Position numbers and translations under genes: made by a program. Source: Parasitella parasitica (lineage: Eukaryota; Mucoromycota; Mucoromycetes; Mucorales; Mucoraceae). From it: a stretch of DNA of 64,000 nt. The stretch is taken from contig MU619318.1 in assembly GCA_025201805.1 (NCBI GenBank), positions 88,529 to 152,528 of the forward strand. Direction: 5' to 3'. Below the pieces are notes generated by a model. It was not told the DNA's origin. It did not search any database and saw only the letters and a program-made list of their open reading frames with translations. Positions 51,967-54,992 of the stretch are shown one piece after another. The first letter of the stretch is position 1. Each line of letters starts with the position of its first letter.

Positions 51967-53162
51967 ATGCAATTTGAATGTCCAGAAAGTATTGATGACA
52001 TTTTAAAACGTCAACATCATACATGTCAGTCTGCTGAAAACAGTTTAATGCTTCTACGAAAGTCTTTATTGACCCAAACTTGTCCACCAAAGGTAAAGAT
52101 TTAAAATATAAATAAAAATCGTGAAAAAAAAAAAATAGTAAAATTATATGTAACTGTCAGTCGAGAGGGAAGCTATGGAGGCTGTTGCTTAGAATCAATG
52201 ACATATCGGCATCTACTTATATTAACTTGATTGAAATGGGGCCTAGCTCTGTGGACGAAAAAATAAGACATGATACGTTTCGCACAATGTCCACAGACTC
52301 GGATTTTGTTGAAAATGTGTCTGAAGATATGTTGATTCGTCTCTTGAACGCTTTTGTTTGGACAAGTGATGATTCCTATACTGGTATCTCTCGAAATCAA
52401 AATCCGGTATCGTACGTTCAAGGAATGAATGTATTAGCAGCTCCTTTTCTTATGACCATGTCTGAGATGGAAGCTTTCTTTTCATATTCTAATTTCATTT
52501 ATAACTGGTGCCCACTGTATGTCGAACCTACAATGAAAGGCGTCCATTGTGGTCTTCGAGTAAGTATACTAGGAGTGTTAAGTTGACTTGCATTAATCAC
52601 TCATCGTATCATAGCTGCTAGATTTATGTCTTACATCATTAGATCCTGTCTTATATGGCTATTTACTAGGCAAGAATATATCCGCCAGTACATATGCATT
52701 TGCCTGTAAGTGGAATATTTCATAAAATTTGTTTCAAAATTAAATCATGAAGTAGCTGTAATGACATTTTCAGCATGCACTCCACCATTATCTGAATTGC
52801 TGCAGCTGTGGGATTACATGTTTGCTTTCGGCATTCATCTGAATATACTTTTCATCATCGCTCAGTTAGCTTTGATTAGAAGTGAGCTGCTGAAAAGTCC
52901 CAGTCCTGCTAATTTGCTTCGCACATTACCACCTCTCAACGCAGACAAAATAATAAATTTGACAGTGTCCTTGTGTCGAAACCTTCCAGCCGATCTCTAC
53001 GACAAGTTAGTTCGCCATTCTTACGATGAATCTGTTTCAGATAAACTTGGTATCAAGCCTACAAGCGCAAATTGGTCAGAACAGCAGAACGATGTTAATG
53101 ATTTACCAGCATACATGCGGGATGCATTGAACATGCAAAGCAGCAGATACAATAGAGGATAA
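51967..53162 (+). CDS. TBC-domain GAP of the Bub2/Cdc16 type
   Basis: Four exons, 51967-52092, 52161-52559, 52615-52705 and 52756-53162, about 340 residues, the compact size of Bub2/Cdc16. It begins MQFECPESIDDILKRQHHTC. TBC motifs: the arginine-finger block EKIRHDTFRTMSTDSDF (Arg about 83) and the glutamine-finger block NPVSYVQGMNVLAAPFL (Gln about 129). Bub2-specific signatures are FFSYSNFIYNWCPLYVEPTM, GVHCGLRLLDLCLTSLDP, YAFASVMTFSACTPPLSELL and LQLWDYMFAFGIHLNILFII. Both catalytic fingers are kept. With Byr4/Bfa1 it inactivates the Tem1/Spg1 GTPase to restrain mitotic exit and septation. Splice junctions restore conserved blocks exactly. Confidence 0.93.
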
Positions 53163-53249: not shown

Positions 53250-54578
53250 ATGAATGCTGAGGCGCCAGATACGTGTACTGAAATCGGCGGTATACTTGCT
53301 GGTATATCCAGAGAGCTTAGATGTAACATCTGGTAAAATGTTTTTTGTGTATATAAATCTATATATTCTTACTAACAACTCATAATATTAAGCCTTGCTA
53401 TTTTGAACGAGGCTACAACTACATTTTGTGGCCATACATTCTGTAAAGACTGCATTGGACAACAAGTTACTGAGGAAAATTGCTGTCCAACTTGCAGCGA
53501 GCAATTAAATACAAGTCAATTGCATCCTGCAGAGTCCTTACAGGGTATCGTTAGTCAGTTTACGCAAATGAAGGAAGAGTTTGAGCGTGCTAATGGCGTT
53601 TGTTTATCTACAATGAAGATATCAAACCTGCCCCAGCAACACCCAATCGATACTCCAAGTAAATAAGCCATGTTCATTTTTGGCTACGCTATAATCTTGT
53701 AGTTTTTCATCTAATCTCGAAAAAATTAGAGGCAGTAGCAACCGAAACTTATACTGAAGAAGATTATTTACCCCCGTATCGTATTTTACAATTGACTCAA
53801 AATCCTATTACTGTATGTTTGCCTTTGATCAAAATCATTTGCACAGATATTTATCGTCCCTGATCATTTTAGCCTATCAATATCCCGGGAACTCGTCTCG
53901 AAAAAAAAATATCTTCAAAGGTAACACATGTGGTAGTCAACGCTGGTATGTCAGGGAACCCATAGACCAAGCTGGATACAGGCATAATGACACTATTTCC
54001 CATTAGTCAATCATAATTTAGTCAAAAACAGCCAAAATTATCGAATGGCCGTCTTATTTGGGTGCTATATTGTCAGTGACACATGTTGGTATCATGCGCT
54101 TTTCTTATCTCAAACAAAAGGATCTAATGCTATAAACACAAATAGGGCTAAAAATAAGTGTAGAACAGGGCCATATGAGTCCCGAACAACGATTTGAGAT
54201 CTACGGCGATGAAACGTATGGGAGAACAGGTGCACCTAGCAAAGCACGATTGAGAAGAGAATCAAATGTACAATGACAAATAGCTCAACTTTTACGAACT
54301 AGAGTTAACATTTATATATATATTTGTAGAAGTCCAATAATTTGTTCAAGAAATTAAAAGTGGGCTTGATTGATGATGCTAACAATGAATATCGCAAATA
54401 CTTGACAATAGGCCGGGCGGAAATTGGGGACTTTCCTGATCTAATTGTATGCAATCTTGATGCCGATATTGAGGAATTGAAAAAGAAACATCTAGGGAAG
54501 ATTCTAATCTCATGCAAATGGATCGAAAGCAGCATCTGTCTGTTTGAACTTGAAGTCAAGGACAAATATATTCTGTAG
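53250..54578 (+). CDS. RING plus tandem-BRCT protein, BRCA1/BARD1-like
   Basis: Seven exons, 53250-53332, 53393-53658, 53730-53812, 53873-53945, 54007-54084, 54146-54267 and 54330-54578, close in frame to about 317 residues. The N-terminus is a C3HC4 RING: LRCNICLAILNEATTTFCGH, TFCKDCIGQQ, CCPTCSEQL. A short linker follows, then BRCT 1 (TRLEKKISSKVTHVVVNA, YRMAVLFGCYIVSDTWLKIS). The interdomain motif RFEIYGDETYGRTGAPSKAR resembles the BRCA1/BARD1 BRCT linker (FE-x-GD followed by NGR and GP-KAR). A second, shorter BRCT-like part is LFKKLKVGLIDD, DLIVCN and KILISCKWIESSICLFEL. RING-BRCT proteins of this order ubiquitinate H2A and act in recombination. No ankyrin repeats or long central region are present. 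The exon-5 donor (GTTGGT) is weak and chosen because it rebuilds the BRCT tryptophan motif. Confidence 0.82.
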
Positions 54579-54740: not shown

Positions 54741-54992
54741 ATGGTTCAAAGACCTGAGCAAGTTAACTATTTTTCATCTCTTTTGCAATGGATGTCCATT
54801 AGTCCTCCTCAAAATCGACAAAACTCTACCTATTCTGACAAGAATCATACGAATCCAAGACAGCATTTGATGCTTCCACGCCAATTAAAGAGACGTGGAC
54901 GAGGCGAAAAGCGCTTTGTTTTTAATTTACCTGAATGCGATAATGAAGAAATTGCTCAAAATTATATTGAATCAGATGCTACTTTGTCATGA
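54741..54992 (+). CDS. Small orphan protein (83 aa)
   Basis: Single-exon ORF starting MVQRPEQVNYFSSLLQWMSI and ending EEIAQNYIESDATLS. A basic middle (LMLPRQLKRRGRGEKRFVFN) is followed by an acidic end (LPECDNEEIAQNYIES). There is no signal peptide or TM. I do not recognise it. Support comes from context: a TATA box, a CT-rich leader, the start context atcaaaagaATGG and a following AT-rich 3' region (AATAAA near 55009 and 55043). The basic cluster KRRGRGEKR could be nuclear-targeting. It may be a lineage-specific small regulatory protein. Confidence 0.55.
   Translation: MVQRPEQVNYFSSLLQWMSISPPQNRQNSTYSDKNHTNPRQHLMLPRQLKRRGRGEKRFVFNLPECDNEEIAQNYIESDATLS

Follow-up and report, generated by a model that had tools for sequence, protein, structure and literature searches.

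The window analysed here is a stretch of 64,000 nucleotides from Parasitella parasitica (assembly GCA_025201805.1, contig MU619318.1, positions 88,529 to 152,528 of the forward strand). Its plus strand carries, at positions 53250-54578, the gene for a small RING-BRCT protein. An original prediction, made from the letters of the sequence, had described the product as a compact BRCA1/BARD1-like protein in a fungus, and sequence profiles together with a structure comparison bear this out. A second RING-BRCT gene was found in the same genome on contig C145. The best explanation of the whole, which we hold to be rather probable, is that the window protein is a shortened member of the BRCA1/BARD1 family that pairs with the C145 protein as a heterodimeric E3 ubiquitin ligase.

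The window protein comprised, in order, a C3HC4 RING, a spacer of about 35-40 residues, a first BRCT (BRCT1), the linker FEIYGDETYGRTGAPSKARLRRES and a compact second BRCT (BRCT2). The Pfam scan, homologue search, 10-row alignment, profile searches (including that of the C-terminal half against PDB sequences), pocket-residue alignment and topology tests were run with a model of 312 amino acids (aa), which is five BRCT1 residues short of the preferred one. On the single sequence, the RING was matched by Pfam PF13923 above cut-off (E 4.5e-10). The BRCT models remained sub-threshold, with 17.3 of 22 bits for PF12738 and 13.3 of 21.3 bits for PF00533, and the BRCT identification therefore rests on a profile of relatives. 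Compared with PDB sequences, the C-terminal profile placed 18 BRCA1 sequences on top (E 3e-14 to 1.3e-13), followed by seven BARD1 sequences (E 1e-5 to 1e-4); the remaining 13 matches had E values of 0.046 or worse. The predicted structure of homologue P0002 showed a tandem-BRCT fold. BRCA1 came first in its fold list with other tandem BRCTs close behind, TopBP1 within 1 Z of BRCA1, and the aligned range extended to the last residue of P0002, covering BRCT2. No ankyrin repeats were listed by Pfam in the window protein. The predicted architecture, a complete N-terminal RING followed by a BRCT, a linker and a second BRCT-like segment without ankyrin repeats, was thus recovered, and the C-terminal half lay nearest to BRCA1, then BARD1, rather than among BRCT-less proteins of the TRIM/RAD18 type.

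The RING by itself is not diagnostic of the family. The RING profile gave BRCA1 58.7 bits versus 45.4 bits for RAD18, and the scores of TRIM21, COP1 and RAD18 were near that of BRCA1. With the single sequence, several families scored above BRCA1, which stood 31st among the 60 matches listed. The P0002 model carried helices on both sides of the RING; among the RING entries of its fold list RAD18 stood highest, with BRCA1 level to within 1 Z. In three homologues the NCBIfam RAD18 model TIGR00599 scored 45-67 bits where 175 are needed, and over the RING part only.

The spliced gene model comprised seven exons, as predicted, and encoded 317 aa without an internal stop. All six introns were GT-AG and 60-71 nucleotides long. 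The features of the gene are as follows:

53250..53332, plus strand: exon 1, with start codon, N-terminal helix and first RING cysteines; the N-termini of homologues align
53393..53658, plus strand: exon 2, remainder of the RING and C-terminal flanking helix (the PF13923 match)
53322..53495, plus strand: RING core, Cys25 to Cys62 of the protein; intron 1 falls within
53730..53812, plus strand: exon 3, linker and first strand of BRCT1
53873..53945, plus strand: exon 4, BRCT1 with the KVTHVVV motif
54007..54084, plus strand: exon 5, BRCT1 with GCYIVSD; acceptor 54007 preferred over 54022
54146..54267, plus strand: exon 6, BRCT1 Trp, last BRCT1 helix and inter-BRCT linker
54193..54264, plus strand: BRCA1-type inter-BRCT linker FEIYGDETYGRTGAPSKARLRRES, which the profile search aligns with BRCA1 chains
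54330..54578, plus strand: exon 7, compact BRCT2 (KWIESSICLFE...YIL) and stop

The exon 5 acceptor at 54007 (317 aa) was chosen because homologues score better with it: it outscored 54022 (312 aa) against eight of the nine homologues tested. The single exception was P0001 from Parasitella, whose own gene model is without part of that stretch. Use of the GTTGGT donor at 54085, singled out in the original prediction, restored the BRCT Trp (SDTWL). W occupies this position in six of nine homologue rows, the others being P0001, P0005 and P0008.

Ten homologous proteins were retrieved from 649 candidates, with E values from 7.9e-149 to 1.2e-51, far beyond chance. Identity was 76% in Parasitella parasitica, 47-56% in Mucor species, 36% in M. 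saturninus, 45% in Gilbertella and 35% in one further protein; the family was thus seen in Mucor, Parasitella and Gilbertella. None of the homologue names displayed in the search was BRCA1 or BARD1. RING and BRCT occurred within one predicted protein in P0002-P0005, P0007, P0009 and P0010. Family counts over ten rows refer to the window protein and nine of the ten homologues, P0006 (no RING) being left out; two other alignments include P0006. The ten-row alignment held 42 invariant columns, and GRTGA and one K of the linker were invariant throughout. All eight zinc ligands were invariant in the nine rows that remained when P0008, whose model is without part of the RING, was also omitted. One further alignment omitted P0001, P0005 and P0008, which have gaps or insertions in their models. 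Several database models appeared mis-spliced or short: P0001 (Parasitella) is without the end of BRCT1, P0008 (Mucor lusitanicus) without part of the RING and P0006 (Mucor circinelloides 1006PhL) without the whole RING. A profile search of proteins returned 15 entries, namely the ten known homologues, the fragment P0011 and four RING proteins (P0012-P0015), for which BRCT was not in the precomputed Pfam lists. A wider fungal search with the P0010 BRCT region, by a method that requires shared five-residue words, found only P0010 itself.

The first helix and the phosphoserine pocket appear to have been lost from the BRCT1 of the window protein. In BRCA1 the pocket consists of S1655, G1656 and K1702, and K70/R71 are the nucleosome anchors of the RING. 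The alignments from which the pocket residues and RING register of C145 were read, like the topology tests, used four of the ten homologues (P0002, P0007, P0009 and P0010). The pocket lysine was lost in most rows of the window family: K was present at the K1702 position in three of ten, and the window protein has N. In the P0002 model no helix lay between the first two BRCT1 strands, and residues 142-148 had a predicted local distance difference test score (pLDDT) below 50. The P0010 model agreed on the absent helix at lower confidence (mean pLDDT 61.8). In the aligned register, the positions of K70 and R71 carry no basic residue in any of the ten rows. With its 317 aa the protein is a shortened family member; it is not a plain minimal BRCA1, because the BRCT1 pocket is not conserved.

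The proposed search of the genome for a second RING-BRCT partner yielded the candidate on C145. A human BARD1 BRCT query had one match in the genome, on this contig (E 7.8e-5), and the human BRCA1 BRCT query matched only C145. The gene (C145:40383-42401, minus strand) was modelled from sequence alone with five exons and 597 aa, and a further upstream exon is possible. Its protein carried a RING, a long linker, a RanBP2-like zinc finger and a tandem BRCT, in that order. PF16589 and PF00533 both exceeded their Pfam cut-offs in the tandem BRCT, the zinc finger reached 16.6 bits with PF00641, under its cut-off of 27, and ankyrin repeats were not listed by Pfam. The 32 matches of the BRCT half were headed by 18 BRCA1 (E 1.4e-19 to 4.1e-17) and then seven BARD1 sequences (E 5.3e-13 to 9.5e-11). 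Many families were matched by the RING, with BARD1 36th among the 60 matches listed and BRCA1 not among them. Searched against the genome, the BRCT half found itself and one weak match on contig C14 (E 0.019). In the C145 protein the first pocket site reads TG and the second RTLKY, and a K is aligned with R71. Its phosphoserine pocket is apparently intact, which suggests that phosphopeptide reading may be done by the C145 protein, since the pocket residues are kept there and are not conserved in the window family.

Two other RING loci were rejected as partners. The only genome match of the human BARD1 RING query lay on C128, a BARD1-type RING with 38.4 bits for PF14835; its exons, read by eye, corresponded to RAD18 (RING, UBZ-like, SAP-like). 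At this locus (L023) a transposase-like open frame of 486 aa adjoins the RAD18-like gene. The best match of the human BRCA1 RING query was on C5 (C5:125549-125773, plus strand, L041), by eye an SPX-type plus RING protein with no BRCT seen; that such a protein topped the query is a reminder that RING scores alone mislead. The window exon ranked 12th of 16 in that search. A further RING plus BRCT gene was not seen in the open frames read at 17 and then seven loci (six genes), a scan that was not exhaustive: introns split matches, regions L047-L050 and loci on C17 and C97 were left out, weaker matches were unlocated, and several minus-strand loci among the 17 came out in the wrong frame.

Features that might separate BRCA1 from BARD1 conflicted. 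The RING loop has 12 residues in C145, as in human BARD1, and 11 in the window gene, as in BRCA1. By loop length and RING profile scores the window gene would go with BRCA1, and C145 would stand closer to BARD1; the opposite assignment is favoured by the pocket residues, the BRCT tree and the basic residue aligned with R71. Three topologies were compared over eight rows, with human sequences as the only outside references. For RING and BRCT combined, none was rejected by the approximately unbiased (AU) test (0.226, 0.710 and 0.399). For the BRCT alone, the first of the three, joining the window gene to BRCA1 and C145 to BARD1, was excluded by AU (0.039), not by the Kishino-Hasegawa or Shimodaira-Hasegawa tests (0.10). 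Sequence and model support the window protein as a member of the BRCA1/BARD1 RING-BRCT family; it is filed by family only, as neither BRCA1 nor BARD1, because the features conflict and the topologies were not separated with human references only.

Whether the protein works as a homodimer or with a second RING partner had been left open in the original prediction. The second RING-BRCT gene makes a heterodimer with the C145 protein likelier than a homodimer. The two proteins would pair through the helices beside their RINGs, and the heterodimer may serve as an E3 ubiquitin ligase where DNA is broken or forks have stalled. Recognition of phosphorylated partners would fall to the C145 protein with its pocket, and the window protein would contribute an E2-competent RING, its tandem BRCT being retained for structure or other contacts. 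The pair may act in recombination with BRCA2 and RAD51. A BRCA2 OB1 domain was present in the genome (C77:29291-29703, minus strand; two matches, E 2.8e-24 and 1.6e-4), as was a weak match to BRE (BRCC45) at C68:127632-127829 (plus strand; 26.2 bits, cut-off 25.8). A search for the PALB2 WD40 domain, in which no control worked, found nothing in the genome. It is conceivable, if somewhat doubtful, that a pared-down BRCA1-BARD1 ligase still works in Mucor-like fungi with its labour redivided, and that in it a 317-aa subunit has dispensed with phosphopeptide reading and nucleosome anchoring and the 597-aa partner keeps the pocket, with a RanBP2-like zinc finger in place of the ankyrin repeats of animal BARD1.

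The window protein might instead form a RING homodimer without the C145 protein, having arisen by duplication within fungi and then been pared down. The topology grouping the window family with C145 was compatible with the RING, BRCT and combined data (AU 0.615, 0.169 and 0.399), and the E2-contact Ile is present in both fungal RINGs (eight of ten rows of the window family, and C145), where human BARD1 has Arg. Known BRCA1/BARD1 members work in pairs, however, and this genome has another RING-BRCT gene, with BRCTs for which BRCA1 and BARD1 are the leading matches; we consider the homodimer unlikely. Less likely again is a RAD18- or TRIM-like RING fused to a BRCA1-like tandem BRCT, with only the C-terminal half in the BRCA1/BARD1 family. 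RAD18 shares the RING fold with flanking helices and is not known to have a BRCT. The higher RING profile score of BRCA1 speaks against such a fusion, although RING similarity of this kind leaves ancestry unsettled, and the gene on C128, by eye RAD18, is a separate one. A decaying, functionless remnant under weak constraint would account for a damaged BRCT1 without first helix and pocket residues and for the low identity to P0009 and P0010 (35-37%). The frame intact across seven exons, the 42 invariant columns and the invariant zinc ligands make this very improbable. The shortened family member paired with the C145 protein stays the preferred explanation.

Among known systems, BRCA1, a RING-BRCT E3 ligase subunit of animals and plants, shares with the window protein the N-terminal RING with flanking helices, the C-terminal tandem BRCT and a similar linker, and headed both the sequence matches of the C-terminal half and the fold list. 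The window protein differs in its missing long middle region and in the first BRCT helix, phosphoserine pocket and K70/R71 basic residues, which are not conserved. BARD1 also shares RING and tandem BRCT and was the second family in the C-terminal profile search; it differs in its ankyrin repeats, and its profile scores were under those of BRCA1 in RING and BRCT. Full-size BRCA1 proteins span 612 to 2,942 aa in PMC8483008, compared with 317 aa here.

BRCA1 homologues in early-diverging fungi are already known from a 2024 listing. In Barua et al. 2024 (PMC11061109), fungal homologues are given for 32 of 40 Fanconi proteins, and BRCA1, found by BLASTp and accompanied by expression data, is named in Mucor lusitanicus, Rhizopus delemar and Lobosporangium transversale. 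These BRCA1/FANCS homologues are possibly the same genes as those described here, and either of the two may be meant; the words BARD1 and BRCT are absent from the main text of that paper. New here are the second RING-BRCT gene and the apparent loss of the phosphopeptide pocket in the window family. Literature searches aimed at a fungal BARD1 returned no paper, and a description of one was not found in the titles and abstract openings of broader searches, mostly confined to their best rows, a coverage outside which most subscription papers and all bioRxiv preprints fell; in PMC10553808 the mention of BARD1 is confined to a reference. According to PMC3969565 the model yeasts have neither BRCA1 nor BARD1, and the system has therefore been studied in animals and plants. 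The finding bears on the statement in PMC8483008 that databases hold no fungal BRCA1. A small fungal pair would reveal which parts of the BRCA1/BARD1 system are indispensable, and whether the ankyrin reader, the docking to nucleosomes and the pocket for phosphopeptides belong to the ancestral state or came later. If it is confirmed, we know of no natural BRCA1/BARD1 system that is smaller, and it could offer a simple, genetically tractable fungal model of a system missing from the usual model yeasts.

Two neighbours flank the window gene. Directly downstream, an open frame of 83 aa (54741-54992, plus strand) had no Pfam match up to E 0.1. Upstream lies a gene at 52125-53162 (plus strand), which by eye we take to be Bub2-like; its 52125-52586 frame carries a RabGAP-TBC domain (PF00566, E 6.7e-15).
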